The notes under the pieces: generated by a model
What the model saw: only the letters and a program-made list of their open reading frames with translations
Database searches by the model: none
What the model was told of the DNA's origin: nothing
Part shown: positions 346 to 31,539 of the stretch, one piece after another
How positions within the stretch are numbered: the stretch's first letter is position 1
Layout of the letters: the number at the start of each line of letters is the position of its first letter
Translations under genes and position numbers: made by a program
NCBI GenBank assembly: GCA_028554755.1
Contig: JAPTOF010000038.1
Span: 124,001 to 188,000, forward strand
From: Cordia subcordata
Taxonomy: Eukaryota; Streptophyta; Magnoliopsida; Boraginales; Cordiaceae
Length of the DNA stretch: 64,000 nt
Direction of reading: 5' to 3'

Positions 346-2584
346 TTCACAAAAGGATGAAAAATGGATGAGAATAATTGCTCCTTCATTTTGACTCATT
401 TGTGAAATTCTTGGCAATTCCTTTCACATTCCAGACAAAATGAATGGCAGTTTCTAAGAGATGCTTGAGTATGGTAGCTTTGAGGTTCCCTTCAAGCACA
501 TGAGGCGTAATGTATGCAATGATCTATTCCTAATCAATCAAGGAATCTTGCATCATAAGAAGATGAAGACCCATTCACCAAATTCTCCTAGTAAAACAAC
601 AATTGAAGAAAAGATGGTCTCTAGTTTCACACCCAATGTTGCAAAAGATACAGTGGGATTAATCTCAATGCCTCAAGTTAACATTCTTAATTTTGTATTA
701 AGGCGATCATGAATTGCAAGCCCAGCAATAAATGCATGCCGAGGAGTATGCCCTTTAAACCACACAATGTTGTGCCATCCAACTTTATTTTGCTTGGTTC
801 AAATATTCTCCCAAGTATGTGCAAAGCTAAAATCTCCCTTTGGAGAAAGATCCCAAGTATCCAGATTTTCTTCCACAAGCTCAAGGTGTGGGGCATTAAT
901 GTGCAAGAGGTGGGAAGGCCAACACCAATTGCCTTGAGAGTAGAAATCACTATCCTTTGCGTAAAAGGGTAGATTGTTAAAAGTGCTACTCCAATGGATG
1001 CCAAGAATGCCTTCCATGTGCCAATTATCATGCCAAAAGTGTGTGTACTTTCCATTGCCAATGATATGAGTGATATGAGACCTTGCAAAGTTTTGACATT
1101 TAAGAAGGCTTTTAAAGATCCAACTACCATCATTTGAGGGAGTTGCTGTCCAAATTGATCCATTTTTGATGTAGTTTCCATGAATCCAATTACTCCAAAG
1201 AGTTTTCCAGCATGCATACATTCTCCAAAAGGTTTTTAGAAGATAAATGTCGTTAATATCTTCAATCTTCTGGATTCCCAATCCACCATCATCAAAAGGA
1301 GTACAAATAAATGTCTTTCCAAGCAATTTTAGCTCTGGTATCCCTCCAAAGGAAAGTGCAAAATTTGGATTCAATTGCTACAACGATTCCTTTAGGTAGA
1401 AGAAGTGCACCAGCCAATAAGCACAAATTTGAAAGAGGATAGACTTTATAAGAGTTAATCTACCTGCATATGAGAGCCAATAAGTGGTCCAGTTTCAAGA
1501 ATTTTCTCTGTGAGTGGTAAGCAATTAGCCTTTCTAAGCTTTCTAGATACAAGGAGAGCATCCAAATATCTAATAGGTAGGGTACCTTCTTTAAACTCCA
1601 CTTGATTTAGAATAGAAAGTTTTTCCTCTTGAGAGACTTCTCCAAGAAAGATTTTAGTTTTGGCATAATTAACTTTCAAGCTGGAAAGAGAAAAGAAATT
1701 GCTCAAAACTTCCATGATACACTCAATTGAATCCAAATTTCCTTTGCAAAAGATGAAAAGGTCATCCGTAAAGCAAAGATGATTAAGCTTCAATATTGCA
1801 CATTTTGGGTGGAAACCAAACCTTGGATTGTGCTTTAAACAATTTAGCACGCAAGAAAGGACCTCCATACAAGTAATAAAGAGATAAGGGGAAAGAGGAT
1901 CTCCTTGTCTAATTCCATTTGCCCTTTTAAAATATCTCTCAAGATTACCATTTAGAGCAATAGAGAAGCTTGAAGAAGTGATGCAAGTGATAATCCATTT
2001 CACAAAGAATTCCAGAAATCCAAAAGCAAGAAGTGTAAACTTAATGAACCTCCAATTGAGAGAATCAAAAGCCTTTATGATATCAATTTTGAAGGCACAC
2101 CTAGGTGAAAGATGTGATCTTGTGTAGCCTTTAAGAAGGTCATATGCCACAAGGATGTTCTCATTAATAAGCCTTCCCTTCATAAAAGCTGATTGATTCC
2201 ATGATATAATAGAAGGTAAACGATCTTTGATTCTATTTGCAAGCGACTTTGAGATGCATTTATAAATGGTGTTGCAACAAGATATAGGTCTAAAGTCCTT
2301 TACCGAAGAAGGATTTTGGACTTTAGGAGCAAGGGCAATATACATTGCATTTACCTCTTTAAGAAGCTTTGATGAGCTGAAGAAAGAGCTAATGGTCATA
2401 AGCACATCTTCTCCAACAATGTCCTAAGCCATCTTATAAAAGTGGGAGGTGTGTCCAAGAGGGCCTGGACTTTTGTTTGGATTGAGTGAGAAGAGCGTTT
2501 CTTTGATTTCCTTAAAAGTAAAAGGGGCAGCAAGATTCTCCAAGCAACTTTCCCAATGGTTTTCCCAATAATCGTCATATGATA
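346..2584 (-). mobile_element. LINE-A, truncated L1-type LINE (ORF2 remnant)
   Basis: A minus-strand non-LTR retrotransposon fragment. It keeps the RT and the C-terminal zinc domain of ORF2 but lacks ORF1, the endonuclease and the 3' poly(A) end. It abuts LINE-B at about 2585 without a TSD or tail, so the contact is probably a deletion joint rather than a fresh insertion. Homology to LINE-H, LINE-D and LINE-U runs colinearly through the whole fragment. Confidence 0.85.
430..2584 (-). pseudogene. LINE-A ORF2 remnant: reverse transcriptase and zf-RVT domain
   Basis: On the minus strand the order is the pre-RT region (NPNKSPGP), RT fingers (FRPISCCNTIYKCIS), motif A (IIKAFDSLNW), motif B (GIRQGDPLSPYLF) and the catalytic box. 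The box reads FTDD (plus-strand bases 1761-1772) where relatives have FADD; both aspartates are kept. A stop near 1455 and frame changes near 2410 and 1380 break the frame. The C-terminal part (799-1374, then about 430-800) contains WFKGHTPRHAFIAGLA, typical of the zf-RVT domain. In an intact LINE this protein would make cDNA at a nicked target by target-primed reverse transcription. Not functional. Confidence 0.85.
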
Positions 2585-4787
2585 CAACAATACTAACCAA
2601 ATCTAGATTTGAGGGGCAAGAAAAAACAAGGAAGAGATACAAGAAAATCAAAAGCAAGGCAAAGCAAGAAGAAACAAACATCACCCCGATTACCAAAACT
2701 AGGGTAAATCATCCAGAGCATGTCGAGGGGGAGCAACATTTCCTTCTTGAGCATCTTCCTCAAGCAGTTCAAAGTGGTTATGCACGAGGGAGCTAGGGGA
2801 AGATGTCCTAGGAGATTGAGGCCGAGAGCCTCTTTGAGCTTGAGAGCTAACTTCAATTGTCTTTCTTGGTGATTTAGGAGAACTAGGCCGAGAAGGATTG
2901 TTGCCTTGTTCATGTGCAATAGTAGATTGCTTTCTTCCAGCTTCAATCCATTTATCTTTGCTTCTGTGATCAACATTTGGTTGTGCTTCTTGAGTGTGTT
3001 GATTTAAAGGACAAGTATTATCAAAGTGTCCTACCAATTTACATTTTGAGCATTTTGGGGGCCTCCATGCATATTCAATTTCAACCTTGGCTCAAGAACC
3101 ATCCTTAAGCTTTGGGAAGATAAAATCTGGCAACTCATCTTCCAAGTTTACGTCAATGCAAACACGAGCAAATTCAAGATTATTTCTTGATTTCATAAGT
3201 GAATCCATTTGCAAAGGGGTTCTAATGAAGGATGCCACATATCCTAGCCCTCTATTAGACCAAAGACAAAAGGGAACATCCCTAAGTTTGATGCAAATTG
3301 GAACTTTATCACATTTGAGAATTACAAATTGGAGATTGGGCTCCTATTTTCTAAGAAGAAGTGGCCTGTGATGGACATGCCACAATTGTTGAACTTTTTG
3401 ACAATACTCATTTTCAAACTTAAAGACAAATAACCCTTGGCCTTTAGTTTTGATTTCAATTGTTCCATATTGCTTCCAAGCAAAATCAACCATGTTCCTA
3501 ATAAGGAAGAAAGGGGGAAGAGCTCCAAGAAATCGACCAACAAGGCAATTTTTTCAATATTCTTCCCTATCTTCATAGAGGTCCAAAGATAGATCCTCCA
3601 CATCCCTTTTATCGTCAACATAGAAAGCATTACGTTTTTCAGGATGCTTGTTATTCATGCAATGTTCAGCAAAGGTTATTCCCCAATTAGGAGTAGGAGT
3701 GTTGAGGTTAGGGACAAATCTTGGCCTCAAAGGCCTTCTCCAAGCATTTGGTGGTTTTTTTACCTAAATTTTCTATTGTAGAAGGCATAATTCTTTTTCT
3801 TAGTGTAGTGGACTTGGTTGGAAGGCAAAGAGTTGGGTCAACACAATCCTTGTTGGCAAATGCCATGTCATTTTGGCAGCCAAGTCATGATTTCCATGTG
3901 TGAAATGAAATTTCAAAGAATCCAACTTCGGGAAGAAGCCAAGAGAGGAAAAATCTTTCGAAAAAGTATTTGGAAAGGTATGCTCATTTTCCAGAGGAGT
4001 ACTAACCTTATGAGTTGTCGAGTATGAGCCTAAAGGAGCTAAAAAGTGGCTAGAATTTTTAGGAAAAGGAGCTAACACATTGCGGATATTATCCAATACA
4101 CTTTTGCGACCAGTGGGTAATAAACCATAGTTGATTGTTTGTTGAAATGGTGTATCCGAAGCATCTTTTGAAGGTGAAATCTGATTGCAAACAACTTCAT
4201 CAAGTCTTTCCATAGATGGGACCAAGTTCTCTTTACCTTGAGCATTAAAAGAAGTACCAACATTGCTATGTTTAAGGGGGGTCAAAGTGGGCTAGCTTGG
4301 AGGAGGATTCATTTCCATGGTCGTTTTAGTAACATTAGGACATGAAGAGCTCCCTTCTTCCAGACAAGCTTTGCACAAGAGCTTGTTTGGAGATATTATA
4401 TCTCTCCTCAAGAAAATTGCCTAAACCAATGGCGAAGGGATAGATTTGTCTAGCTTCATCAATTTTCTTATCAAGCTGTTCTAAATAATTTTCATCACAT
4501 ACCTCTTTGTTGTTCTTCAAGAGAAGAGAAGTCTTACTAGCTGAGCATGAGTGTGTGTCAAGACCATACAAGATGTCTTGCTCTTTGTTAGACAAAGAAG
4601 CAGCATCATACGGATCTTCAAGAGGGCAAGGGTTTTCATACTCAAAAGGAGAACTTGCATTGAAATATTTAGAGCACTTGGCTACCAAACGAGCACTAGG
4701 ACGAGTCTTGAAGGATGAAGCACATTTTTTCTTGCCCATAAATGTCGAAGATGATGATGGAAAAGGGTGGTAGTGATGGTCCCCAAG
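2585..4787 (-). mobile_element. LINE-B, ORF1-only LINE (3' tail missing)
   Basis: A minus-strand element with a 5' leader, one ORF1-type reading region and a short 3' UTR that matches the other ORF1-only copies (CCCCTCAAATCTAG on the minus strand). No ORF2 sequence follows the ORF1 stop. The terminal poly(A) is absent because the element is cut at about 2585, where the LINE-A RT fragment begins. The 5' end is placed at about 4787, where plus-strand ORF1 sequence of LINE-C starts. Confidence 0.75.
2699..4739 (-). pseudogene. LINE-B ORF1 (DUF4283-like and CCHC RNA-binding protein)
   Basis: The start is chosen at MGKKKC (ATG at 4739) because the MGKKK opening is shared with other copies; an in-frame ATG further upstream lies in the leader. 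A serine- and acid-rich N-terminal half (4739 to about 3650) is followed by a DUF4283-like domain (motifs CLVGRFLGALPPFFLI, QLWHVHHRPLLLRK, VASF) and a zinc knuckle CSKCKLVGHFDNTC. A serine/proline-rich tail ends at 2699. In related LINEs ORF1 coats the element RNA. Several frame changes are present, plus an in-frame TGA (plus bases 3554-3556) just before the CLVG motif. The same TGA occurs in LINE-X. Confidence 0.8.
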
Positions 4788-5630
4788 GAAGTTCTTATCC
4801 CTCAAAATTCATATGAAATGCAAAATGACTTCCCTCCTCTTACACATTTCTCGGCCAAATCTCTTGGTCTAGACCACGTGGCAAATGAAGACAAGAATGA
4901 GGTGAAAGCCAACTCAAAAAGTTTTACCACATCATCAGAAATTGGAAAAGATGACTTGACTAAATCTAGCTCACCTTCAGGTGTTAACCAATGAAATGAG
5001 AAGCCAAAGGCTCTATTGGTGGAAATAGAGGATGAAACCCGAAGTAAAGCAAGCATGCAAGAAGAAAGGGCTACTCTACCACAAAATGCTTAGAAGAAGC
5101 CACCCTTCTTAATTTATGAACCCTCACCAAACAATCCTACTTCCAATTGGGAAAATGACTTTACTGAATTTACGGAGACAAATTTGCATCTTGAAGAAGA
5201 ATTTAAAGTTGAAACATGTGATGGTATTAGAGACGTTGAGGACCCACCTCAAGACTTGTATGATGAAGGGGAAAGCTTTTGAATAGTGCTCCCCCCTTCC
5301 CCCCTTTTTGCTTTATCAAAAATGTGATGTACAATGCATGGTGGAAGTTTGTTAAAGAGGATATATATCCCAAAGGAAAAGGGTTGTTTATGTTTAATTT
5401 TGAAAAAGAGGAATATTGCCAAAGACTTTTACAACAATTTTGGCATAAAAATCATAGGTCTTTGCTTCTTAGGAAATGGAAACCCAACCTTGAATATGTC
5501 AATTTATCTTGCAACAAAGTGCCAATTTGGGTCAAACTTAAGGATGTTATACTTAGCTCATGGTCTAAGAGGGGTTTTAGTTATATTTCATCCTATGTTA
5601 GAAGGCTTATACAAATTGATGCCATAACTG

Positions 5631-5647
5631 AATCAAGGAGAAATCTT
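5631..5647 (+). repeat. left target-site duplication of LINE-D
   Basis: AATCAAGGAGAAATCTT, 17 bp. It is repeated exactly at 14137-14153 on the other side of LINE-D. The last T residues run into the LINE-D tail, so the length is 15-17 bp. Confidence 0.9.
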
Positions 5648-8600
5648 TTTTTTCTTTTCACAAAGTAAGTGAGGATTTCATTAAGAGTGAAAGAATTTAC
5701 AAAGAGAATAAAAGAGTTCAGCACCTATACAAGAATTTCTTCTAATTTCAATGATTTGCATATGGCTTTGCTTAAACAATTGGAAGTGAACTTTTTCCCA
5801 AAAATACATTTGATTCGGACTTCATTATAGATGTTGGAGATGATTGGTCTTCGGTTTTTGCATTCATGCTAAAAACTCGGCTATTTCTTTCTTTCCATAT
5901 ATGATAGATGGTGGCTCCCAAATAGTGCTTCATAATAGTTGCCATCAAATGCTTCTCGAGTGCAAATGGAGTGAGAAAATCCACAATCTTATCCCTTGCA
6001 AACAATGGCTCTTTGACAAGAGTGAGTTGCAAGCGCTTCTTCTAGATTCTATTTATGAAGCTACATTCAAAAAATATATGGTTTCTAGTTTCACATCCCA
6101 AATTGCAAAAGGAGCAAGTGGGGTTAATATTGATTCCCCAATGAAGGATATGAAACTTTGTGTTGAGCCTATCCAAGAAAGTAAGCCAACAGATAAAAGC
6201 ATGCCGAGGTGAATGTCCTTTGAACCAAACAATATTATGCCAATTAACCTTATTTCCCTTGATTCTAATAAACTACCATGTGTGTTTAAAGGAGGATTCA
6301 CCATTTGGAGATAATTTCCAGCAAAAGGAATCAGATTTTCCTTCTTCAAGTTGGTAGGTAGGTGCATTGAAATGGGAGAGGTAAGAAGGCCAACTCCATC
6401 CATTTTGAGTGTAGACATCACTAACCTTTGCAAAGAGGAGAGGATGAAGAAAGATGTTATTCCAAGATTTCCCTCCGGGTGCTAAGTGTCCAGCCAAAAA
6501 TAAGTATCCTTGCTATTCCCAATAATATGTTTGATGTTTTCTCGAGCTATATCGCTGCATTTGAACAAACTCTGCATTATCCAATTATGATCATTTGGAA
6601 TGATGTAGGTCTAAACGGGACCATCCTTAATGTAATTCTCGTGAACCCAAGAGCTCTAAAGTGTATCCCTGAATGCATACATTTTCCAAAGAATTTTTTG
6701 CATGAAAGTTTCATTAATTTCCAGAATTCTTCTAATTCTAAGACCCCTTTCTTCATGTGGCAATCAAATATCTTTCCAAGCAACTTTTGTTCCAGTATCT
6801 CTCCAAAGGAAGGTTTTAAACTTCTTTTCAATTGTTGCAATGACCCTCTTGGGGATGAGAAAAACACTAGCCCAATATGAACATATTTGGATAAGAGTAG
6901 ATTTGATGAGAAGTAACCTTCCAGCAAATGATAACCATTTTGTTGTCCAATGCTCAATCTTCTTTGTGATCTATTCCAAAAAAGGATAGCAATCAGCCTT
7001 ACAAAGTTTTCTTGTTACAAGAGGAACACCCAAGTAACGAAAGGGGAGATTACCTTCCTTGTTCTCAAGCTTATCAAGGATTGCATTTTTTCTCTCCAAA
7101 GGAACACCTCCAAAGAACACATCACTCTTGTCTTTGCTGATTTTTAAACCTGTGAGAGAATGATAAGCATTGAGCGTATTCATAATGCATTCAAGAGGAA
7201 GTAATATTTCCTTTGCAAAAGATAAGGAGGTCATCTGCAAAACAAAGATGGCTAAGCTTCATATTGCCACATTTAGGATGAAATTGAAACCCATCTTCCT
7301 TATCCAATTTGTTAAGCATACATGTAAGGACTTCTCTGCATATCACAAAGATATAGGAGGAAAGGGGGTCACCTTGTCTAATGCCATTAGCTTCTTTAAA
7401 GAAACCTTCAAGACCACCATTGATAGCAATTGAGAAGCTCGGGGAAGTAATACAAGCCATCAACCAATCAACAAACTTTTTAGGGAAGTCAAGAGCAATA
7501 AGAGTGCATTCAATGAAATGCCAATTCAATGTATGAAATGCCTTCATGATGTCAATTTTGAGTACACATCTTGAAGAGATATGGTTTCTAGAGTATCCTC
7601 TAAGTAGCTCATGGGAAATTAGGATGTTCTCATTAATGAGTCTACCATTAATGAATGCTAATTGGTTTTTTGAGATGATGTTGGGAAGGCATTTCTTAAG
7701 TCTATTGGCTAGGATCTTGGAAATGCACTTGTAGATGGTATTGCAACAAGAGATGGGGCAAAAATGTTTGACCATAGTGGGATTTTGAACTTTAGGTACA
7801 AGGGTGATGATAGTGATATTTACCTCTTTGAGGAGATTGTTGGTTGAGAAGAAAGACTTGATTGCATGCATCACTTCATCACTAATGATTTCCCAAGCCG
7901 CCATGTAGAATTTTGATGCATAACCGTTGGGTCTCGGACTTTCATTGGAATTGAGGGAGAAGAGACTCCCTTTAATTTCCTTATTAGAGACGGAGGTGGC
8001 AAGCATTTCCTTCTATTCTCCTTCAATTGTTTTGCCAAGTATGGATTTGATGCTTTGAACAGTGGAAATTGAGTTTGTTTTAGTTCCAAGAAGGTCCTTG
8101 TAGAAGGAAAGAAATTGGGCCTTCACCTCTTCATCCTTGGTAATCAAGTTGCCATTTGCATCTTGAATTGCATTGATGGTGTTCTTGATCCTTCTACTTT
8201 TAACCACATTATGGAAGAACTTAGTGTTTGCATCCCCCTCCTTGATCTATTGCATGCGAGCCTTTTGATAGAGGATTTTCCTACAAGAAGCTTCAAGAGT
8301 CTTAATATCCTTCAAAATTTCCCCCTCTTTATCAATCACCTCTTCATTACAATTTCCATTAAGAATATCAACTTGTACTTCTTCAAGATCTTTCTTGAGC
8401 TCACGGATTTGGTAAGGAATAGTAGAAAAATGCTTGTCGAATTACTTGAAAGCATGTTTGAGGATCTTTTGTTTTTGTGTGAGAACAAACATTGGTGTGC
8501 CTAAAATCCTTGCCTTCCAAGCTTCTTCAACCACCTTGAGAAATACTTCATGGGAGGTCCAAGCATTGAAGAATTTGAATGGTTTTGGGAGAGAAGGGTT

Positions 8601-8955
8601 AGACTTACATGTGTGCATGACAAGGGAGCAATGATCGGAAATCCCCGGATTGTCAACCAAGAGGAAGGAGCTATCCAAGAACTCAAGCCATTGCGAGTTG
8701 ACAAGTGCTCTATCAAGTTTGCTTGCCATGAAGTTAGTTGGAGAGCCTTTGTTTGTCGAAGTGAAGTGAGGACCAAGCACTTTATGCTCAAGTAAACAAG
8801 ATTTGCTAATGCATTTCTTAAAATCCCAAGCATTAGGGGGGATGGAAGCATAAGAGGACCTATCCCTACAATGGAGGATTTCATTAAAATCCCCAATCAC
8901 AAAAAATAGGCTATCTTTACACCATGAGCTCCATTCCTCAAGCGTTTCTCTAAAG

Positions 8956-8972
8956 AATGCTTCTACCTTTGG
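8956..8972 (+). repeat. left target-site duplication of LINE-E
   Basis: AATGCTTCTACCTTTGG, 17 bp. The identical copy is at 11567-11583, right after the LINE-E poly(A). Removing LINE-E and one copy restores the reading of the LINE-D endonuclease region. Confidence 0.92.
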
Positions 8973-11566
8973 AAAAGAAGGTTCAAATATTCTATCAAAG
9001 TGAGATGATTCTCTTTCTAGATTTTTTGCTCTCAATTCTCTCTACACTCTCTTTGTACCTTTACCCTTCTTCTTCCTCTTAAACTCCTTCTTTCCATCAT
9101 GCCTAAAAAGAAGAATCACCTATCATCTAGGAAAAGTGCAAGAATCAAAGCCATTAATGCAAAGCTTAAAGAAACCTATGAAGAACTCCTTTTTACTGGT
9201 GTTCAAAATGATTTGCATGGTGCTGGAAACATCCTTGCTTCTCCCTCAGTGCTTGAAAATTCCTCGTCTTTGCTGGTTGGAGATGATGATTCCTCCATCA
9301 ACTCAAACCTCGAGCTCAAGAAAGCTTATGATGACTGCTGCAACATGGGATCTTTACCTTCACAATCTTCTTCTTCTAAGTCCATGGGCTCCACTCCATG
9401 CTTGGATTTGGATGGGGAAAAGACGCTTGCTACAATGACGAAAACTCCGAAAGGTTACCAAGCACAAAATGTTTTTAATGCAACAACTATGAAAGAAGTC
9501 TCTTTTGATGAGCTTCGAGATGCTCCCATGGTAGCCAACTCTGTTTTCGTTTTGAATAGCTTTAAATCACCTAAGCTCAATGAGTCTCATTCTGATTCTC
9601 TTTATATCGAGAACTCGTTTCTGGTCACAAACTCCAATTTTTAGCGTGGGAAATTGATGAAAAATGATGCAAAATTGAATCTGAACTAGGCGAGCAATGA
9701 GCTTGAAGAAGATGATAAAGCATAGTGGTTATTACCCACTGGTTTTTCTAAAAATGAAGCACATACTTTTCCTATTTTTCCAGCTACCTTTTCAGGTCAT
9801 TCTAGCTTTTTGGCTACCACCACTTATAAAAAATCGACACCTCATCACCCAAATATCAATGAATCATCACAAGTACATTTTCAAAATACTTATTCGGCTC
9901 AATATCTTGAGGAATTCCCTCCATTAAGCCTGCCACCAACAAACTTATGTGGCTACCACCTCAATATTGACTTGGCTGCCACTTCAAAAATTAATTCCAC
10001 ATCATCAGTCCATGGTGACCAACAAAATAATGTCCAAAAAGCTCCTTTTGCAGCTGTTACTCAAGGCCAAACTTCCTTCTTTTGCCATGGACGAAATGCT
10101 CATAGCCGGTTCAATGCTAGGCAAGGCAACTTTGACTCACGTCCCCAACCAGATTTCAATGGTGGGCAAGATCGTTTCTCTCAACATCAAGGTAATGGAA
10201 GTCATTTTGCATCTCATAATGCATGGAGAAAGCCTCTTAGGCAAAAGTATAAACCTTCTTCTACTTCTCCTAATCGAAATTGGAAAGGTGTTTTTGCTCA
10301 ATTTTGCACTATTAACTATAAGCTTGAAGGTCATGTTACAAATATTGTTGATGGTATTAGAAATGTTGAGGACCCTCCGATCGATATATATGAAGATGGT
10401 GAAAACTTTTGGCAACATTGCCTTATTGGCAAATTTCTTGGTGTCCCTCCATCTTTTTTCCTTATTAGGAACATGGTGGAAAATGTTTGAAAAAGCTTTG
10501 GAAGAATTGAAATCTTTTCTAAAGGAAAAGGATTGTTTATTTTCAAGTTTGAAAATGAGAAAAATTGCCAAAAAGTTTTGGAACAATTATGGCATATAAA
10601 CCATAGGCCATTATTGTTGAGAAAATGGGAACCTAATCTTGAATTTGTTAATCTCACAAGCAACAAAATACCAATTTGGGTAAAATTGAGAGATGTCCCA
10701 TTAAGTCTATGGTCTAGAAGAGGCCTTGGATATGTTGCTTCTTCAATGGAAACCCCCTTCAAATGGATGCTTTAACGGCATCAAGAAGGAATCTTGAATT
10801 TGCAAGAGTTTGTGTTGAGGTTAATTTAGAGGAAAAGCTTCTGGAGGATATTTTTGTGAACCTTAGAAATGGCTCTAGGGCTAAAGTGGAAGTGGAATAT
10901 GCTTGGAAGCCCTCCAAATGAGATTTTTGCAAAATTGTTAGGCATGTTGAAGACCTTTGTCCTATGAAACCTGAACCCTAACCCATGCAAATTAAAATTG
11001 ACCAAAATGCTTCTAGGCGAAAATTACAAGAAGAATGGATTGTGGTTGGTAACAAATATGCTACTCTTGAAAGGAAAAATAATGGATCTTGCTCTCAAGT
11101 AAGCAATGCATCTCAGCCTCAATCACCCAAGAAAATTTCTTATTCAAAGGCACCAAGCCCAAAAGTGCAAAAATGCAACCATTTTGAAGTGTTAAGTAAG
11201 GATCCGCTGATTGAAGAGAAAATGCAAGCACATAAAGATCCGATTGAATGTTCGAATACCGGCTGATTTGGCTGAAAAGGACGATTTTGTCTTTCATCTC
11301 AAGTGCCCTCCATCAACTCACACTTTATCCTTGAGTGGTTTTTTGGGATTTCTTTTGTATGTTTGGAGTTCCAAACTTTTTGTCTTGTTGATTAACTCTC
11401 ATTCCTTGTTTTATAGGATCAATGTATAGTGGAATGAGGGTTTTTTTTCTTTTTTTCATTTTTACCATGCCCCTCTTACCCTTGTGCTTTTGAGATTGTT
11501 TTTAGTGGGATTGAGGGGCATTAGACTGTTTTGTGATGAATTAAACTTACTTACCCCGCAAAAAAA
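8973..11566 (+). mobile_element. LINE-E, complete ORF1-only LINE
   Basis: A 2.6-kb plus-strand unit with a 5' leader (8973-9098), one ORF1-type region, a 3' UTR of about 300 bp, the terminal motif ACTTACTTACCCCGC and a poly(A) tail. It has an exact 17-bp TSD, so both ends are fixed. No endonuclease or RT sequence lies between the ORF1 stop and the tail. It is therefore a whole mobile unit of an ORF2-less LINE and not a 5'-truncated or decayed two-ORF copy. It sits in antisense orientation inside LINE-D ORF2. Confidence 0.9.
9099..11266 (+). pseudogene. LINE-E ORF1 (DUF4283-like and CCHC)
   Basis: Starts with MPKKKNHLSSRKSARIKA, a lysine/arginine-rich opening equivalent to MGKKKR in other copies. 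The first open stretch runs to 9644. After stops near 9644, 9688 and 9725 the frame continues 9810-10490 and 10533-10775. The DUF4283-like domain is recognisable (CLIGKFLGVPPSFFLI, QLWHINHRPLLLRKWEPN, LWSRRGLGYVAS). The zinc-knuckle region near 10915-10965 is damaged: its first cysteine is replaced by a stop. A C-terminal tail ends at 11266. The role in intact form would be RNA binding and particle assembly. Confidence 0.85.
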
Positions 11567-11913
11567 AATGCTTCTACCTTTGGGGTTGTTTCTATCATAG
11601 ACAAAAGCCATACAAATACAACTTTTATTGGCCAAGCTAATGTGATAAAGAGCGCCTTGATCAATAGATTCCACAAAAGTAAAGTTGATTGAGTTCTTCC
11701 TGAAAAACTAAAGCCTACTAATCATATTTTCCTCCACATGATTTTTGAAGCCCAATATTTCAAAATAGGTTGCAATAGTAGTAAACAATGCATCTCTAAC
11801 AACCTTTGTTTCCAAAATGCAAAAACAATCAATCTTGTGTTTAGAGATCCAAAAGTTCACTTCCCTTTGTTTGCTTGGGGTATTAAAACCCCTAATGTTC
11901 CAAGAACCAAAAA

Positions 11914-11917
11914 TCAT
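11914..11917 (-). promoter_or_regulatory. ATGA overlap of ORF1 stop and ORF2 start (LINE-D)
   Basis: On the minus strand the ORF1 C-terminal frame ends PSQ-stop at TGA. The ORF2 ATG shares its TG with that stop (ATGA). Equivalent overlaps occur at 14733, 21069 and 36798, and a decayed one at 46282. Confidence 0.85.
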
Positions 11918-13959
11918 TGGGAAGGAGGAGTATGAGCAAACATGCTTGCGTTCTCCTTGCTTCCAGCAATTAGTTGATTTGAATTTGTATTGGCCTTAGA
12001 TGCCAAATTACAGGTGAACCCCAAGGCTTTCGATGATCTTACCCTCCTCCTCCACATCAAGAGTTTCAAAGTGGTTTGATTGTATAATCCCATGTTCAAT
12101 GTTCTTTGGGGAGCTATGATGAGCTTCGGTATTAACCTTTGGTTCTTCTTGGCAAGAAGCATTCTTCTCAACATTAGTTTGCTTTATCCTAACAATTTGC
12201 CATTCATCATTAGGAGAAGCATATCTAGCATTATAGTAGACTCTTTGCCTTTGTTGTTGTGTAGTAAATTGACCTTTAGATGGTTAATTTGTTGGCTTTG
12301 AGTTTGAAGGAAAAAAGTTTTCATTGTGACCCATCATTTTGCATAAATCACATTTAGGTGGACGCCAAGCATGTTCAACTTCCACTTTTCTCTTTGTACC
12401 ATCTTTTAATTTCACATAGACTTCTTCCGGCTAGTGACCTTCAAGATCAATCTCTATGCACACTCTTGCAAACTCAAGATTTCTCCTTGATTCCGTATGT
12501 GCATCCATTTGAAGGGGCTTTCCAACGAAAGAAGCAATATAGCTTAGTCCTCTCCTAGACCAAAGGCTAAGTGGAACTTCCTGAAGCTTGACCAAAATGG
12601 GGATTTTGTTGAATTTGAGGTTCACAAATTGGAGATTAGGTTCCCATTTCTTAAGGAGGAGTGGTCTATGATTTACATGCCACAATTGGTGGAGCACTCT
12701 TTGGCTAGCTTTTTCCTTCTCAAACTTAAACACAAATAATCCCTGGCCTTTTATGAAGATATCAATATGCCCAAATCTTTTCCAAGCAAATTCAACCATG
12801 TTCTTTATAAGAAAGAAAGGGGGAGGGGCACCTAAGAATCGGCCATCTAGGCAATTTGTCCAAAACCTTTCCCCGTCTTCATAAATTTCCTCAAAGGTTC
12901 ATCAACTTCTCTAATACCATTAACAATTTTTACTTATGCTCTTCAAGTTGTAAATTCGAGCAAACAAATTGAGAAAATTCTCCTTCCCAATGAAGTGGTG
13001 GCTCATTAGTTATAGGCTCATACCTTATGCTTGGGGGTTTCCTCTAAGCATTTTGCTATCCATTGTTTCTTTCCATCTTTTTCGGGTGTTGCTCCTTGAT
13101 TTCTCCATAAAGCATGTGCGGAAAGTGAGTAATTGGAGCTTGAGAGGTTTTGCTAACTCGGCCATGAGTTGGATTGGCTTAAATGTCAAAATGCTTGTAT
13201 GGCAAGCCATGTTGAGATGAAGTGGCTGCCATATTGAAGGGGAGATCTTCTTTCTACCGAGTTGGTAAAGGAGGGAAAGAAGTTTCGTTAGCTTCCAATG
13301 CAACATTTGAAATGAGTGGGACCCCTTGGCTATCAAGTTTACTTGTCTTAGGAGACAAAATGGGGCTGGTAGGTGGATGAAAAGGTGAAGGCTTTTCCTG
13401 AAATGATGCTGAAACTTCAGCAACTTTTGTACTTTTAATGACCTCTAGTCTTTGCCTATTGGCTAAAGCTTCATCTTCTCTATTTGCACGTTCTGTCTCA
13501 AGACTTCTATTAATGTTAAAGGTAGCATTTCTCTTAGCGCTACACAATTTGGCTCCATATTTGATTGAGATTTTAAAGGAGAAGTAAAGATTTTCTTTGC
13601 AATATTAATCTGGCTTGTAACTTATTGTTTTCATTCATACATCTTGATCAATGGCTTGGAGGAGAGTGAGGGCGTGAGCTAAGGATTAGATTCTTGACCA
13701 TGTCCCTTTTAGCACAATCTTTCATCTCCTCAAAAAGTTTGAAGGAATGACCAGATTCAACAGCATCGTAGACCTCCTTGAATTCTTTACTAGTGGTTGA
13801 ATAGGCATCTTCACTTCTGAGAGGTGAAGAGGCTGATTCAACCTCCATGGAAGAAACACTCTTGAGTTTGTGAGATGAGAGGCTCTCAAGAGATTGAGCT
13901 TTAGTATTCAAATGCGTACTAGATCTCACCGGGGGTGAAGTTCTTTTCTTTTTTCCTAT
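11914..13959 (-). pseudogene. LINE-D ORF1 (DUF4283-like and CCHC)
   Basis: The conserved opening GKKKR is present but its ATG has become ATA (minus strand at 13959), so no clean start remains. The acidic and serine-rich N-terminal region is broken near 13640 and 13250. The DUF4283-like domain (12431-12799: VEFAWKRFGHIDIFIKGQG, LWHVNHRPLLLKKWEPN, GLSYIASFVGKPLQMDA) is well kept. The knuckle reads CDLCKMMGHNENFF: the last cysteine is replaced by Phe, so it could not bind zinc normally. The C-terminal frame (12174-11914) is open to the TGA that overlaps the ORF2 ATG. Confidence 0.83.
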
Positions 13960-14136
13960 GAGAGTCCAGTAATGATGGGGCAAGGGGACGACTTGTAGAA
14001 GTGTTTAGGCAAAGTAGATGAAGGTTGTTTGAGGGTGGTAGCCGTGTGTAGTGGTGCGTTTGCTGGTTGAAGAAGTTCTAGAGAGAAGTGAGAGGATTTT
14101 TATGGTAGAGAGAGAAAATTCTTTTTCATCTTCCTT

Positions 14137-18884: not shown

Positions 18885-19243
18885 TTTTTTTTTGGCAAGA
18901 AAAGTGAGAATTTGCATTATATGCACATCATGTACAAAAGGAAATCAAAAGTGGGGGCAGCCTAGACAATGATCTCCTCAATCCCCCAAGATTTACAAAT
19001 AGATTTATTAATACAAGAAGAAGTGAAATGCTTTCCAACTACATTTAAGCCGAATATGGTTGAAAATGGATGAGAAAATTTGTTCTTCTATCTTGACTTC
19101 TTTATTAAAATCTCGATTATTTCTTTCAATCCATACAAAGTAGATGGTGGCCTCCAAAAGGTGCTTGAGAATAGTTGCCTTGAGATTCATCCCAAGTCCT
19201 TGAAGAGTGATAAAAGCAATGATGTCCTCCCAATTGATTAATG
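18885..19243 (-). mobile_element. LINE-G, 3' fragment of an ORF2 LINE
   Basis: The poly(A) appears as a T-run starting near 18885, followed by the conserved terminal motif (CTCACTTTTCTTGCC on the minus strand). The 3' UTR and the last 75 or so codons of ORF2 follow (WEDIIAFITLQGLGMNLKATILKHLLEA, IYFVWIERNN). It stops where LINE-H begins at 19244. No TSD is found, so its right end was probably lost. Confidence 0.75.
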
Positions 19244-21072
19244 AGAGAGGAGATGCTTCATCCACCTCTAGTAAAGAATTTTAGGATGTGTTTAAAGCAC
19301 TTGAATTTGGTTGCACATATAAGGAACACCTTGATGCACAATCCAAAGCTAAGGTTGATTTGATTCATAAGCTCTCTTGTACTCCTCACTCAAGAAACTC
19401 TTCCTCTTCTAAATCTAACACTTTTGTTAGTCCGCAAAAAAAGAAAGTGGAAAAAGAGCTTGCACAACACCTTTTTCATTCCCAAACTCCTTGTTTCGGC
19501 CATGGTGTCTTCAACGAAGAAGAAGAAGACTTGGATGCCCATACTTTACCCATTGGTCAACAACTTCCGGATAATAGCATTATTCCCGAGGTAATGCATA
19601 GAGAAAAGGAGATTGGCAGCACCTTTTCAACCCACTCCAAACAAGACTTGACAACTCACTCAAGTCAAACTCACTCAAAATCTGATCCATGTGACACTAT
19701 GCTTGAAACACTTGAGCCATTGGAACTTTTCCCTCATCTTGGAAACTCAAATCTCAAGAGCTTGGCTGACCCACTTAAGCCAAGTCAGCCCTCTTCATTA
19801 AATGACATGGCAGCCATGTCGTCAAATCCTCCTCTCAAAAATGACCCCAAGGCAGAAACATATGCAAGCTTTGGAAAGTAAGAACACAACACTAAAGCAA
19901 ACTATAATCAAGGTCGAGTCTTGCACCATGCTTACAGCCAACCTAATGCTTGGAAAAAGCCTCTTAAACTAAGGTATGTGCCTTCTACAAATGAACCTAC
20001 TTCTGATCGGGGTGGGGTTTTTGTGGAGCATATGCATACAAATCTGAAGTTTGAGGAAGAGCATGTTTATAATGTGGTTAATGGTATTAGAGAAGTTGCT
20101 GATCCTCCTGAGGATTTATATGATAATGGGGACAATTTTTGGAGACATTGCTTAGTTGGACAATTTTTAGGTGCCCCCCTACCTTACTTCCTAATCAAGA
20201 ACATGGTTGATTTTGCTTGGAAGAAGTTTGGCAAGGTTGACATTCATACTAAAGGAAAAGGTCTCTTTATCTTTAAATTTGCAAAAGATGAATTTTGTCA
20301 AAAGGTTCTACAACAACTATGGCATGTTAATCATAGGCCTTTTCTTTTGAGAAAATGGGAGCCAAATCTGGAATTTGTTAATCTTTCATGCAAAAAAGTC
20401 CCTATTTGGGTTAAACTATGGGATGTTTCGATGTGCCTCTACTCCAAAAGAGGACTTGGTTATATTGCTTCCTTCATTGGGAAACCACTCCAAATGGATG
20501 CACTTACGGATTCAAGAAGAAACTTAGAGTTTGCTAGAGTGTGCATTGAAGTTGATTTGGAGAATAACCTTCTGGATGCTATATTCCCAAAGCTAAGAAA
20601 CGGCTCTAAAGCAAAAGTTGGAGTTGAATATGCATGGAAACCAAAAAAGTGCTCCTTTTGCAAAATGGTTGGTCACATTGAAGATTCTTGCCCGTCAAAG
20701 CCTCAACCTCAAAAGCAAGCTCCTAAGCAACAACCCAAAGTTCACTATGAATGGCAAATTGTTGGCAAGAAGCAAGACCACAAGAAGAACACTACCAAAG
20801 AGCCCATGGTTGCTGATTTGTCTCTTAATAAGAAGCACTCTACTTCTCAGCCTTCTACTCCTTGTCCCAAGATTACCAATGACCCCTCAAGCTCCAAGAT
20901 GGTACATGCTAATCAATTTGAGGTTCTTGATCAAGGAAGGAATGTTAAAAGTGATACATTGCAACACACTAAAAAGTCAAGCTTGGATGAGAAGTTGGAT
21001 TGCTATAGCAATCTCAATGCCAATGATAATCAAATTTTGGAGCAATCAGCTCCTCTCCCAATTGGCCAATGA
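19244..21072 (+). pseudogene. LINE-H ORF1 (DUF4283-like and CCHC)
   Basis: The N-terminus is missing: the sequence starts inside the EREDASSTSSKEF region known from LINE-U ORF1. Stops at 19282 and 19881 break the N-terminal half. From 19921 to 21072 the frame is open for 383 codons. Within this open part, the DUF4283-like domain spans roughly residues 45-205 (GIREVADPPEDLYDNGDNFW, CLVGQFLGAPLPYFLI, QLWHVNHRPFLLRKWEPN). The knuckle CSFCKMVGHIEDSC sits at about 244-257 with all four ligands, and a charged tail ends at TGA 21070-21072. Expected role: binding element RNA in cytoplasmic particles. Confidence 0.87.
21069..21072 (+). promoter_or_regulatory. ATGA overlap of ORF1 stop and ORF2 start (LINE-H)
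   Basis: ORF1 is open for 383 codons up to this TGA and ORF2 opens at the overlapping ATG (MRICSWNIRGFN). This is the clearest case because both flanking frames are intact. Confidence 0.9.
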
Positions 21073-24000
21073 GGATTTGCTCTTGGAATATAAGGGGATT
21101 TAATTCCCCAAATAAGCAAAAAGAAGCGTTGAAGCTAATCAATAAACATCAATTAGACATTATTTGTCTTTTGGAAAACAAAGTGACTTGCAAAGATAAA
21201 GTCAATCTCATTGGTTCTCATTTTTGGAAGCTTGGATTTTCACACCATATGGATGATAAGGTTAAAGGTCGGATTTGGCTATTTTGGAGGAGCAACATTC
21301 AAGCAACTTTTATTGATTCTTGTGATCAAGCTCTCCTCTTTCATTTTGTTGACTCTTATAATTCACCATTCCTCGTTGCTTTTGTCTATGGCAGGAATGA
21401 AGCTACAAATAGGAAAAAGTTTGGAATAAACTTGCAAGCTAGACTTTTTGGTGTAAAGCTTATAATCTTTGCATTTTGGGTGACTTTAATGAGGTCTTGC
21501 ACTGTGGGGATAAATCAAGCTCTTCTACTATCCCCAAAAGTGCTTGGGACTTTAAATCTTTTGTTGCTAAAACAAATGTGCACAAAGCAAAAGGACATGG
21601 ACCTCATTTCACTTGGACTAACAAAGGTGATGTTAGCAACTTTTTGGCAAGCAAACTTGATAGGGCATTTCTGAATTCTATTTGGCTTCACAATTTTCAT
21701 CTCTCTTTTCTTTTGGTGGAATGCCCAGGTGCTTCGGATCATTGCCCCCTTATTTTGCATACATGTAAGGCATGGAAATCTTCACCAAAACCATTCAAAT
21801 TCTATAATGCTTGGACTTCTCATCCGGATTTCTTGAAGCTTGTGGAGGAGCATTGGAGTACACGGGTCTTTGATACTCCAATGTTCATCCTCTTTCAAAA
21901 GCAAAAAATTCTCAAGCAAGCTCTCAAGTCCTTTGATAAATCTCATTTTGCTTGTATTCTTAATGCTATCAAAGATCTTTATGGGGAGCTTGAAGCCACC
22001 CAATGTGCTCTTCTTAACAGTGGATATAGTGCTGCCCTTCTTGACAAGGAAAAGGACATTTTAGCTAATTTCGAAAGGCTTGAATCAACTTACAAGGCTT
22101 TGCTTATCCAAAAAGCTGGATTATCTTGGATCAATGAGGGGGATTCAAACACCAAGTTCTTTCATAATGTTGTGGAAGGAAGAAAAATCAGAAACACCAT
22201 TCAAGCAATCAAGAATGAAAATGGGAATCTTCTTCTTGAGGACTTTGAGGTGAAAATGAATTCATTGGCTACTACAGAAAGCTTCTTGGTTCAAAAGCTA
22301 TTACTCATGTTAATGTGGATATCTTGAAGAGTATTATTGGAAAAGCAATTGATGATAATTTTGCTACCACCATTTGTGCACCTATCACAAGGAATGAAAT
22401 CAAGGAAACTCTTTTTTCCCTTAATCCCAACAAAATTCCGGGTCCGGATGGCTTCACATCTCATTTCTATATGGTTGCTTGGGATATTGTTGGTGAGGAT
22501 GTTACTAATGCTATCAGCTCCTTCTTTGAATCAAGCAAGCTTCTTAAGGAGGTAAATTCCACCATTATTGCACTTGTACCTAAAATTCCAAATCCCTCCA
22601 TGGTTAAAGATTTTAGGCCAATATCTTGTTGCAATACTATTTACAAGTGCATTTCGAAGATTATTACTAATAGGATCAAAGCTTGCTTGCATCACTTAAT
22701 TTCATGGAACCAATCAGCCTTTTTAAAGGGCCGGCTTACCAATGAGAATATCCTTCTTGCACATGATATTTTAAGAGGTTATTCTAGAAGCCATATCTCC
22801 CTAAGATGTGCCATCAAAGTTGATCTTATGAAAGCTTTTGACACTCTTAATTGGAGCTTTATTGAATGCACTCTTCTTGCATTTGGTTTTCCTTAAAAGT
22901 TTGTTGAATGGATTAAAGTATGCATTACAACTCCTAGCTTCTCTATTGCTCTTAATGGTGGTTTGGAAGGCTATTTTATTGGAGCAAATGGAATTCGACA
23001 AGGTGACCCCATCTCTCCCTATCTTTTTGTTCTTTGTATGGAAGTGCTTTCTTGCATGCTTAACAAATTGGAGAATTGTTCAAGCTTTCGTTTCCATCCA
23101 AAATGTGCTCACTCGAAGCTGAACCACCTTTGTTTTGCGGATGATCTTTTCATTTTTTGTAAAGGAGACTTGAGCTCTATTGATTGTATTTTGAATACTT
23201 TGAAGAACTTCTCTTTTTATTCTGGTCTGAAAATCAATGAAGCTAAGAGTGACATTTTCTTTGGAGGGGTCTCTTATGAAACTAAAATGGCTATCCTTGA
23301 AAGAGTTCGTTTCAATGAAGGTGATCTTCCAATTCGATACTTGGGCATTCCACTTGTTTCTAGAAAACTAAGGAAAGCCAATTGCTATCCTCTCTTGGAA
23401 AAAATTAATGCAAGAATTGATTCATGGTGCAACAATTGACTCTCATTTGCGGGAAGACTTGTGCTTATCAAATCCATTCTTATTCAACACTTGCTTATTG
23501 GGCAAATGCTCTTCTTATTCCTAAAGGTGTCTTGGCTGCCATTGAATCAAAGTTCAAAGCATTTTTATGGAGAGACACAGGGCCCAAAGTTGCTTGGAAG
23601 GAAGTTTGCCTCCCCATGCATGAAGAAGGACTTGGAATTAGAAAGTTAGAGGAAGTCAATTTGGTTTGCATGCTTAAAGTCTTCTAGAGAATATATTCAG
23701 CCAAGGAAACACTATGGAGTCAATGGATTCATACAAATTACATCAAAGATTCTTCCATTTGGGTGTTGCATACTCCTAAGGATGCTAGTTGGATTTTGAA
23801 GATTCTTCTTAAATGCCGAGGTCTCGCAAAGAATTACATTCAGCATAGAATTGCGAATGGTACAAACACATTCTTTTGGATTGATAATTGGTACAAAGAT
23901 GGTTCACTCTTGGAACATTGGTCAAGTACATTTCCAGCCCCTTCTCTCCTCTCAAAGGTATGTGACATCTTCTCTAATGGAGCATGGAATTGGCCAACTC

Positions 24001-24642
24001 ACCTTCAACATATTGATGTTCCAAATTTTATTCTTCATGGTGACAACATTGATAAAATGCTTTCGACTCTTACTCCAAATGGAGACTTCTCTTTCAAACA
24101 CACTTGGGAGCATTTTCGAAGAAAGGGCAGCCACTTCAAGGGTTATAACCTCATTTGGCACAAGGGGCACAATTCAAGGCATAGCTTTATTGTTTGGCTT
24201 GCATTCCTTGACCGTTTGAGTACAAGGTTCAGAATTCTTCATTGGGGGCTCAATATTAACCCATGTTGAATCTTTTGTAGAATGGGTTGTGAAATGAGGG
24301 ACCATCTTTTTTTCGAATGTAGTTTCACTGGAAGGATTTGGAGAAATGGTCTTCTTCTCACCAAAATTTCGGAAAGCTTGATCTCTTGGGAAGACATTAT
24401 CACTTATATCACTCCTTTTTCCCTTGAAAAGCATTTGAAAGCAACCATTATCAAACATTTCTTTTGTGCAGCCGTGTACCACATTTGGATTGAAAGGAAT
24501 CAGCGCATCTTCAAAGACAAAGCTAAAACTGAGGAGTTCATCTTCTATGCTATTTTTAATGATGTTAGAGTTAAACTCTCAAATTGTAAAAAGTTTCCTT
24601 TCTCACCTTTGAACAAATCATTATGCAAAGATTGGAGATAAG
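21069..24642 (+). pseudogene. LINE-H ORF2 (EN, RT, zf-RVT), lightly damaged
   Basis: About 1,190 codons when lesions are ignored. The endonuclease (21069 to about 21800) keeps RICSWNIRGFN, LLENK, GDFNEVLHC and ASDHCPL. RT (about 22400-23350) keeps DFRPISCCNTIYKCIS, LMKAFDTLNW, GIRQGDPISPYLF and catalytic FADD (23134-23145). The zf-RVT region (about 24140-24350) keeps WHKGHNSRHSFIVWLA and the metal-binding pattern IFCRMGC...DHLFFEC. I see a frameshift in an A-run near 21415, a TAG near 21442, a frameshift near 22280, and stops at 22897, 23439, 23687 and 24268. Not functional, but the best template for the family. Confidence 0.87.
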
Positions 24643-24746
24643 AAAATATTTTTGTATTGGTTCTTTTTGTACCTTCTCATCTTGTACTTGTATATTTAAC
24701 ACATTTTTATGAAAATTCTCACTTATCCAGCGAAAAAAAAAAAAAA

Positions 24747-27009: not shown

Positions 27010-27180
27010 GAAAAAAACAATACGAATCCCCTAAAGCTAGATTACATCAATACTAACCAAGGAGTTGTTGAGCTTCCACATGTTCCAATATCAAGATTAG
27101 CTTTATTTGAAGGAAACTTTTTATAAAAAGAGACTTTACATCTTACATCATTGTAAATAGTTACAAAATATTTTCTTCAG
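27010..27180 (-). repeat. LINE 3'-UTR fragment with 20-bp direct repeat
   Basis: Short minus-strand remnant of an ORF2 C-terminus and 3' UTR; the same sequence is at 28640-28738. The 20-mer ACATCAATACTAACCAAGGA at 27044-27063 is repeated exactly at 28522-28541, which may record an insertion event in this pile-up. Confidence 0.5.
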
Positions 27181-27705
27181 TTTTTTTGTGAGGTAAGAAA
27201 AGTTTATTTCAACGCAAATTTGCAAGTAGTACATCGCGATACCCCTCAAATCTTTAGATACAACAATTCCTAAAAAAAAAAACTAGATTTGAGGGGTATG
27301 AATCAAAATAAAAGATTTGGGGAATTCCAACATAACAAGACAAACATTACAAAGAAACTAAGGAAAAACAAGCTAAGTATCTAAATGACTAGCCAAGTTG
27401 AGCGGATCATCATGCATTAGTCTCCCATTTTCTTCCTTATCAACCACAAGCTCCACAACATTTCTGACAACATCAATATCACCTCGAGTGGAATTACCAA
27501 CATTTGTAAGCTCTTCATGAGCATTGCTTGCCCTATTGTTTTCCTTGCTAAAGCAAACATCATTTGTCTTTCCTTCTTCATCATCAAGAATGGAGAAATG
27601 GTTTGCATTCATAAGGACCTTTGGAGTAAAGGCCAAGTTGGCATTGCCAATATTTGGAGCTTTGGAGTAGAGGCCAAGTTCATTTTTTTTGGTTTGTGCT
27701 TCATT
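27181..27705 (-). mobile_element. LINE-K, 3' part of an ORF1-only LINE
   Basis: T-run at 27181 followed (minus strand) by the terminal motif CTTACCTCAC, a 3' UTR with ATTTGAGGGGTAT and an ORF1 C-terminal frame (27700 to 27373: VLMNANHFSILDDEEG...). ORF1 goes straight into the 3' UTR, with no ORF2. It is cut at 27705 by the tail of LINE-L on the same strand. Confidence 0.65.
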
Positions 27706-28333
27706 GCTTTTTTTTTTTGCGAGGAAAGTGTGAGGTATTTGTATTAATGAATAAAAGATATACAAGTGCAAAAGAGAAACAAAAAGGGGGCTAATCCTAT
27801 ACAAGAATTTCTTCTATCCCCCATGATTTACAAAGAGTTCTGTTAATACAAGAGTAATTGAATTTTTTTTCAACAATACATTTAATGCGTACATGATTCA
27901 AAATGGATGAGAAAATATGCTCCTTCATTTTCGCACCTTTGTTGAAAATGTGATTGTTTCTCTCATTCCAAATGAAGTAGATGGTTGTTTCCAAAACATG
28001 CTTCAAAATAGTGGCTTTAAGGTTACTCTCCATGACTTGTGGAGTAATAAAAGCAAGGGTGTCTTCCCAAGTGATAAGCAAGCAATGGACAAAAATGAGT
28101 TGAAGGCCTCTTCTCCATATTCTTCATGTAAAGCAACATTAGGAAAAAAGATGATCACATGATTCATATCCAAGATTGCAAAATATGCAAGTGGGATTAA
28201 GCTTCATTCCTCAAGTAAGCATTCGAAACTTTGTATAAAGCCTATCATGAATGGCCAACCAAGCAATGAAAGCATGTCGTGGGGGATGCCCTTTGAACCA
28301 TATGATGTTATGCCAATCAACTTTGTTTCCTCT
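27706..28333 (-). mobile_element. LINE-L, 5'-truncated ORF2 LINE fragment
   Basis: The T-run at about 27706 and terminal motif (CACACTTTCCTCGC) are followed by the ORF2 C-terminus (ITWEDTLAFITPQV, IYFIWNERNN) and the zf-RVT stretch (NKVDWHNIIWFKGHPPRHAF). It ends abruptly at about 28333, where a second ORF2 C-terminus is fused in frame; this creates a misleading 87-codon open frame (28211-28474). Confidence 0.7.
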
Positions 28334-31452: not shown

Positions 31453-31539
31453 ATTGATAAGTTACATAAAGGAAATACTACATGGAAATTTTTTCTCCCA
31501 CATTGAAAGATTAGCAACTTTGGGTGCCAAGGTTCTCTC

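Follow-up and report, generated by a model that had tools for sequence, protein, structure and literature searches.

An ORF1-only family of L1-clade LINEs in the plant Cordia subcordata, probably dependent on resident two-ORF LINEs

Can a plant long interspersed nuclear element (LINE) that encodes only the protein of its first open reading frame (ORF1) persist and multiply as a family, or is such an element just a damaged copy of a longer one? This question is raised by LINE-E, an element at positions 8973-11566 of a 64,000-nt stretch of the Cordia subcordata genome (GenBank assembly GCA_028554755.1, 472 Mb in 62 contigs; positions 124001-188000 of contig JAPTOF010000038.1, here C32), which we call the window. 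The window is a nest of L1-clade LINEs carrying DUF4283 ORF1s, and the named relatives of its DUF4283 ORF1 in a protein search are plant proteins. A preliminary description, made from the letters of the window, had proposed that LINE-E belongs to an ORF1-only family moving without its own reverse transcriptase (RT). The existence of this family was confirmed, and it is more extensive than was supposed there. The family is best read as a long-lived and diverse group of plant L1-clade elements that encode the ORF1 protein (ORF1p) only and have their own 3' untranslated region (UTR). We consider it very probable that LINE-E belongs to a family of LINE parasites providing ORF1p in cis and taking endonuclease (EN) and RT in trans by means of a shared tail; the trans supply, the cis action and the roles of hairpin and tail are what we infer.

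LINE-E lies on the plus strand, as do all its parts given here, and is structurally complete, with leader, ORF1, 3' UTR and A-tract between two exact copies of a 17-bp target-site duplication (TSD), aatgcttctacctttgg, at 8956-8972 and 11567-11583. EN, RT and ORF1 content was determined by tblastn using pieces of a two-ORF LINE at 19.2-24.7 kb. This element, T19 (19243-24743, plus strand, from the first ORF1 match), has ORF1, EN, RT and a short 3' UTR, and represents a young two-ORF family. ORF1 was matched inside LINE-E, and no match to EN or RT was obtained there with these queries. The architecture proposed for LINE-E is thus borne out, with a mismatched-flank control now run for the TSD. 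Its ORF1 is not intact: the region (9099-11266, ATG at 9099) is broken by stops and frame changes, and its best-conserved part is the DUF4283-zinc-knuckle block at 10215-10977. By profile and alignment, the 3' UTR (11267-11559) is of the ORF1-only type. It holds a hairpin at 11467-11521, where ATGCCCCTC (11467-11475) pairs with GAGGGGCAT (11513-11521); it was read from the sequence and from a per-row stem search, and the shuffle-test run ranked a different LINE-E stem higher. A terminal stem, TTTTGTG / CGCAAAA, and the tail ACTTACTTACCCCGC-poly(A) follow at 11529-11563 and resemble two-ORF ends. LINE-E is inserted in the EN domain of a two-ORF LINE, H (5648-14136, minus strand, own 17-bp TSD AAGATTTCTCCTTGATT), whose EN matches flank it at 8702-8923 and 11564-11905. 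LINE H itself is inserted in ORF1 of a third LINE.

The genome contains many relatives of LINE-E. The whole element gave 52 matches (40 of 2491 candidates scored) and its 3' UTR gave 14 (14 of 14 candidates scored), of which seven, LINE-E included, cover at least 267 of 377 nt. A near-full copy (L002) and a 5' piece (L013) carry the left host flank of LINE-E at 96% and 95% identity, so they are duplicates of the LINE-E insertion and not independent insertions; independent full-length relatives exist elsewhere in the genome. A young sister subfamily is much richer. Its 3' UTR had 248 candidates, and all 40 that were scored have 93-100% identity across 337 or more of the 342 nt. Among 23 sister-type ORF1 matches read by hand, 18 have the sister 3' UTR about 180-230 bp downstream; that of the remaining five was not among the 40 scored. 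The 3' UTR of LINE-X, another ORF1-only element of the window, found 33 matches, five over nearly full length (LINE-X included). For a deeper ORF1-only clade, 40 of 1400 candidates were scored, which yielded 40 long matches at 90-100% and a single short one, and in eight fetched loci of this clade the ORF1-only 3' end was downstream in six (one already in L027), EN was directly downstream in none, and nothing was recognised in two. For the two-ORF family T19, scoring 40 of 2083 candidates yielded 40 matches at 87-100% plus two short ones. Five near-full young ORF1-only copies share 97.3-98.9% identity over 2575-2603 aligned bases, and three T19-type two-ORF stretches are 96.3-97.3% alike. LINE-E is therefore no unique deletion product: it has relatives in several ORF1 clades, and in two of these all 40 copies scored for each are at 90-100%.

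By eye, copies of both kinds cluster in narrow bands, for example at about 24.7-25.7 Mb of contig C1, at 18.0-19.9 Mb of C12, within 0.7 Mb of the end of C61 and within 0.3 Mb of the start of C6, which may represent pericentromeric enrichment as for Celine of poplar. Flanks or neighbours are common to the locus pairs L002/L013, L009/L010, L017/L018, L022/L023 and L042/L043. Segmental duplication seems to be common in the LINE-rich regions and to inflate copy counts.

The copies carry the marks of LINE insertion. An exact TSD of at least 13 nt was found upstream for 12 of 43 ORF1-only 3' ends with distinct flanks, versus 10 of 1752 flank pairings from mismatched loci. Full-length copies of 2.5-2.7 kb with TSDs and no ORF2 had been predicted, and eight TSD-flanked elements of 2.5-2.8 kb are now known: LINE-E, two in L020, and one each in L014, L017, L021, L027 and L045. 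No same-strand match to EN, RT or ORF2 was found inside these eight. 5' truncation was also seen among the copies, and L015 has a 5' inversion.

If LINE-E were a member of a two-ORF family, its type of 3' UTR should normally follow an ORF2, and in the sample examined it does not. A profile of the ORF1-only 3' end was made from five window ends (LINE-E, 61414-62980, 47784-48962, 27.2 kb and 28.7 kb), and the nearest upstream same-strand coding match within 900 bp was recorded in the window and 20 loci. For 32 ORF1-only 3' ends this match was ORF1 in 18, the ORF2 C-terminus in three, EN in two, RT in two and nothing in seven, and ORF2 abuts none of the 32. The ORF2 C-termini are 362-472 bp away, with a two-ORF 3' end intervening in all three cases. 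EN and RT matches are 401-534 bp away, and these four ends are read as 5'-truncated copies nested in other LINEs. ORF1 is at most 522 bp upstream in 16 of the 18, while in the other two it is 852-853 bp away with another ORF1-only end between. By comparison, 25 of 30 two-ORF 3' ends are at the ORF2 C-terminus, three are with RT and two with nothing, and in the window the 3' UTR of two-ORF LINEs is short, reaching roughly 80-110 nt past the ORF2 stop. In a larger set labelled by script, the ORF1 block is 414-577 nt from the 3' end in ORF1-only rows (one exception, 115 nt) and 309-396 nt from EN in two-ORF rows.

The ORF1-only 3' UTR has a conserved hairpin about 50 nt before the poly(A). In 41 copies the mean stem score is 15.5, against 9.1 after shuffling (maximum 10.1), and 31 of them carry GAGGG or GAGAGG in the 3' arm. 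At equal distance, 25 two-ORF ends score 8.5 against 7.7 shuffled (maximum 9.0). GAGGGG occurs in 30 of 45 ORF1-only ends and in 0 of 25 two-ORF ends. Of 31 distinct copies, 24 have a best stem of at least 9 bp, loops are 23-39 nt, and the base pairs show compensatory changes (C-G and U-A, A-U and G-C), in counts that lean towards the hairpin because the per-row search seeks pairing; in a few rows, for example 47780, L036 and L046, it chose stems other than CCCCTC/GAGGGG. The shuffle control and the two-ORF control are free of this bias. RNAalifold found no structure in the 3' UTR alignment (energy 0), probably because MAFFT split the right arm by one column.

Downstream of the hairpin, the last 45 nt or so of ORF1-only and two-ORF ends resemble each other. 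A profile of two-ORF ends matched four of seven window ORF1-only ends with E values of 1.3e-5 to 5.1e-5, and the last 22 nt of ORF1-only ends agree with the two-ORF majority letters at 14.4 of 22 positions versus 8.1 after shuffling. The terminal stem alone is barely above shuffles (6.6 versus 5.7 in ORF1-only ends, 6.3 versus 5.3 in two-ORF ends), so it carries no weight in the argument. One monocot L1 lineage and SINEs (short interspersed nuclear elements) are described as sharing a conserved 3' end of about 50 nt with a hairpin, read there as stringent recognition (Ohshima, PMC3747384). The trait of this stringent type, a 3'-terminal sequence common to non-autonomous and autonomous elements, is present here, significantly so in four of the seven window copies.

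The ORF1 of ORF1-only elements evolved under purifying selection. L019 has an intact ORF1 of 777 aa in one frame, which matches DUF4283 (PF14111) with E 2e-31 and no other Pfam domain at E 0.001. With the NG86 method, dN/dS of the DUF4283-knuckle block was calculated for a selection of rows from the set, nine of them ORF1-only and six two-ORF. Among the 35 ORF1-only pairs with a value, 27 have dN/dS of 0.12-0.25; for the young subfamily against LINE-E, L026 and L014 it is 0.12-0.15 at dS 0.76-0.82. Four other pairs have 0.28-0.32 and three have 0.06-0.11, the latter at dS 1.5-4.3; values with dS above 1 are rough, near saturation. The closest pair, X61/L048, has 0.49 at dS 0.19, where decay after insertion should dominate. 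The 15 two-ORF pairs have 0.11-0.19. In protein searches, residues 400-700 of the intact ORF1 gave 0 matches at E 0.001, a two-ORF ORF1 gave 21 and a mixed alignment 55; the relatives P0022 and P0002 from these searches group with the two-ORF clade.

What was observed directly is the structure, the TSDs, 5' truncation and inversion, the own hairpin 3' UTR, the similar tail, purifying selection and young copies. From these we suggest the following way of life. The ORF1-only RNA would serve as the template for ORF1p, and this protein most likely binds in cis to coat the RNA it came from, which would explain why ORF1 is under selection in an element without any enzyme. EN and RT of resident two-ORF LINEs would then copy the RNA by target-primed reverse transcription, with the poly(A) and the 3' tail of about 45 nt common to both kinds as the putative recognition signal. 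The parasite-specific conserved hairpin just upstream of the tail probably helps in competing for ORF1p or RT. Copying in trans is suggested by the similar 3' termini and by a fragment of ORF2 at an ORF1-only 5' junction: in L017/L018 the TSD and the element are separated by 39 nt that match the start region of T19-type ORF2 at 94.9% identity, and ORF1-only and two-ORF RNAs may have met there in one reverse-transcription complex.

Several points weigh against such a reading. The evidence for trans-complementation is indirect. The captured ORF2 piece is a single event, as L017 and L018 are duplicate loci, and it could come from repair. The ORF1 of LINE-E is decayed and spread over several frames with stops, and only one of seven young copies (L019) is open from the usual start to the stop, the other six being broken. 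Of the 43 copies, 31 yielded no exact TSD of 13 nt or more, many loci being cut short upstream. The two-ORF profile misses significance in three of seven window ends (E 0.4, 3.1 and one unlisted). The profiles were trained on window copies and the loci picked by similarity, so the partition is not a random genome sample, and its 32 ORF1-only ends include duplicate loci (L009/L010, L017/L018, L022/L023). Finally, in L002, L012 and LINE-B of the window, ORF1 and half of the 3' UTR are followed by ORF2 sequence.

In these last three, the LINE-E-type 3' UTR is broken inside the hairpin and continues with ORF2 sequence in the same direction. The missing half was found neither left of the window, for LINE-B, nor in the L002 and L012 loci. 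Because they keep no ORF1-only 3' end at the joint, they are read as later insertions or chimeras, and the joint of L002, which has the left host flank of LINE-E, is later than the insertion. The three places are 2577-4805 (minus strand) in the window, near 4019 in L002 and near 1402 (minus strand) in L012. Joining or insertion may favour the hairpin. The preliminary description had listed LINE-B as ORF1 followed directly by the 3' UTR; in the tree its ORF1 does fall with the ORF1-only elements, and their 3' UTR is present for its first half, but an RT segment is then joined.

ORF1-only elements may have arisen once or several times. A DNA tree of ORF1 was made with 45 rows (25 ORF1-only, 14 two-ORF, six unlabelled), unrooted, leaving out the duplicates L034, L010 and L018 and matches spanning fewer than 480 model positions; L002 and L012 were relabelled by hand as ORF1-only and 5082 as two-ORF. 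The two-ORF rows came from the window, locus flanks and T19 similarity, so deeper two-ORF relatives may be missing. A single change splits the two kinds in this tree (shuffled mean 11.7; 0 of 500 as low), and the separating branch has modest support (81/69). In rooted protein trees the two-ORF rows are nested inside the ORF1-only rows. One ORF1-only clade gave p 0.22 with one outgroup set and was rejected with a closer set (approximately unbiased (AU) test, p 0.012). Monophyly of the ORF1-only copies thus varies with the choice of outgroup.

Four other accounts were weighed. The first is reticulation: template switching would have moved ORF1 between two-ORF LINEs and a single old ORF1-only lineage that had a 3' UTR of its own, either one way or both ways. 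We regard this as a plausible history, though not the one we would expect. It fits the finding that ORF1 clades standing apart in the rooted tree have homologous 3' UTRs, as well as the template-switch-like junction of L017/L018, a composite element within one TSD (28739-38532) and the three places where ORF1-only sequence is joined to ORF2 sequence within the hairpin, and ORF1 of animal LINEs has been proposed to evolve reticulately (PMC4120745). The rooting, however, is unstable, and the L002 joint postdates the insertion. A larger version, which we think unlikely, would see a stable LINE hyperparasite lineage as old as or older than the two-ORF lineage now serving it, with selection for a cis-acting ORF1p, a private hairpin as preferred joint and template-switch exchange with autonomous LINEs, so that two-ORF elements of this clade may carry a parasite-derived ORF1. 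Repeated internal deletion of the HAL1 type is rather doubtful. Here several two-ORF LINEs with an ancestral long hairpin 3' UTR would have lost ORF2 independently, and present two-ORF LINEs would later have lost that 3' UTR. With the closer outgroup the ORF1-only rows are indeed paraphyletic, with one clade rejected at AU p 0.012, and the two-ORF rows form one clade nested among them (95/98). Yet the other outgroup set does not reject one clade (p 0.22), one change is enough in the unrooted tree, GAGGGG is in 0 of 25 two-ORF ends, and the eight TSD-flanked full-length copies show no ORF2 match between ORF1 and 3' end. A third account, that the copies are reverse-transcribed two-ORF transcripts, prematurely polyadenylated or spliced and made anew each time, would suit the common ORF1 domain and the similar 3' tail; we rejected it as very improbable on the ORF1 split by one branch and on the long 3' UTR not seen in the two-ORF LINEs examined (GAGGGG again 0 of 25). 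That LINE-E is a one-off internal-deletion or pseudogene product has next to no probability left, in spite of its broken ORF1 and small subfamily (14 3' UTR matches, seven long, and two further copies being duplicates of the same insertion), since large young related subfamilies with matching architecture in several ORF1 clades rule it out.

Other elements of the window are built like LINE-E, and several places had been listed beforehand as ORF1 followed by a 3' UTR. A 5'-truncated ORF1-only element, the former insert A, lies at 47784-48962 (minus strand) in RT of a two-ORF LINE, with the exact 13-bp TSD AATGATGGTAGAA, just as described. A placement of insert A at 15.26-17.2 kb was rejected: no ORF1 match is there, and the 13-bp TSD belongs to 47784-48962. 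LINE-X (61414-62980, plus strand, from the first matched base) has ORF1 and a LINE-E-type 3' UTR, and no TSD was found for it; the alignment of both elements with LINE-E runs from ORF1 to the poly(A) and includes the 3' UTR. LINE-X and 28739-29227 were upheld by alignment and profile. The latter is part of a composite at 28739-38532 (minus strand), made of a two-ORF LINE from leader to A-tract and the 3' part, about 490 nt, of an ORF1-only element, with one flanking 16-bp repeat, AAAGTCTCTTTTCGTA. It contains later nested insertions, has a paralogous uninterrupted site at 27.1 kb, and could have formed in one event or in two. A short host sequence recurs at 27.1, 28.7 and 38.6 kb, so parts of the nest were duplicated. 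An ORF1 tail with ORF1-only 3' UTR at 27181-27707 (minus strand) adjoins the A-tract of a two-ORF 3' end and follows it without a gap. This order of two-ORF end, A-tract and ORF1-only piece (27.7 and 29.2 kb) may be due to template jumps, read-through RNAs or two-step insertions into A-tracts. The 3' end there, matched at 27179-27328, and a fragment found by profile search at 38599-38683, both on the minus strand, were absent from the earlier list. Two listed places fell away: the supposed 3' UTR at 43459 is not distinguishable as ORF1-only type (E 0.13), and LINE-K, if it is the ORF1 at 5082-5653, continues at 14138 into EN and so is a two-ORF element. The one at 58523 stands as an ORF1-only 3' end (58522-58612, minus strand), weak by profile (E 1.2e-5). 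It possibly belongs with 63054-63994 (minus strand), an ORF1 piece of the deep ORF1-only clade for which it is the matching 3' end, the two being apparently separated by LINE-X and a Copia piece. An open frame at 58637-59395 (plus strand) resembles by eye the RT/RNase H end of a Copia polyprotein.

ORF1-only LINEs were described in mammals as HAL1, or 'half-L1' (Bao and Jurka 2010, as summarised in PMC5322556), with poly(A) and TSDs and dependent on full-length LINEs for RT and EN. Like HAL1, the LINE-E family has ORF1 only, poly(A), TSDs and many copies, full-length ones being without ORF2. Unlike HAL1, its ORF1 is of the plant DUF4283 (PF14111) type and not derived from mammalian L1, its 3' UTR, with the conserved hairpin, is unlike the one in the two-ORF LINEs examined, and young copies are present in two deep subfamilies at the same time. 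HeT-A of Drosophila is described as having one ORF for a structural protein and no RT, and as needing a two-ORF partner (PMC4700185). The LINE-E family shares the single structural-protein ORF, the absence of RT and probably the need for a two-ORF partner. HeT-A is telomere-specific, whereas copies of the LINE-E family have TSDs and sit nested in other LINEs, and their ORF1 is of plant L1 type. By analogy the family works like HAL1 and HeT-A but belongs to neither.

Celine of poplar is a plant L1-clade LINE with DUF4283 ORF1, EN/RT ORF2 and TSDs of 10-30 bp (PMC11288735). The LINE-E family resembles such LINEs in DUF4283 ORF1, poly(A), TSDs and nesting, and differs from the autonomous ones in having no ORF2 (EN, RT) and from the two-ORF LINEs of this genome in its longer and different 3' UTR. 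SINEs of maize and sorghum are reported to share their last 50 nt or so with stringent-type plant L1 (Ohshima, PMC3747384). The LINE-E family is likewise non-autonomous with a 3' tail common to its LINE partner, but unlike these SINEs it encodes a protein under selection. Plants also have TR-GAG elements, gag-only long terminal repeat (LTR) retrotransposons, which keep a nucleocapsid-type protein and take the enzyme in trans, as the LINE-E family probably does; being LTR elements, they are unrelated. No plant ORF1-only LINE was found among the titles and abstract openings listed by searches of open PubMed Central, subscription papers and Repbase being outside this search.

The family offers natural experiments on two questions, whether plant L1 RT recognises 3' structure or poly(A) only, and why ORF1p must be supplied in cis. 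An ORF1 with dN/dS mostly about 0.12-0.25 in a non-autonomous element is an argument that ORF1p works on the RNA encoding it, even if RT is supplied by another source. For genome annotation, ORF1-only elements are easily mistaken for truncated LINEs or DUF4283 host genes. Mammals (HAL1) and flies (HeT-A) are already known to have ORF1-only LINEs, and a rich case in a plant would point to a general lifestyle.

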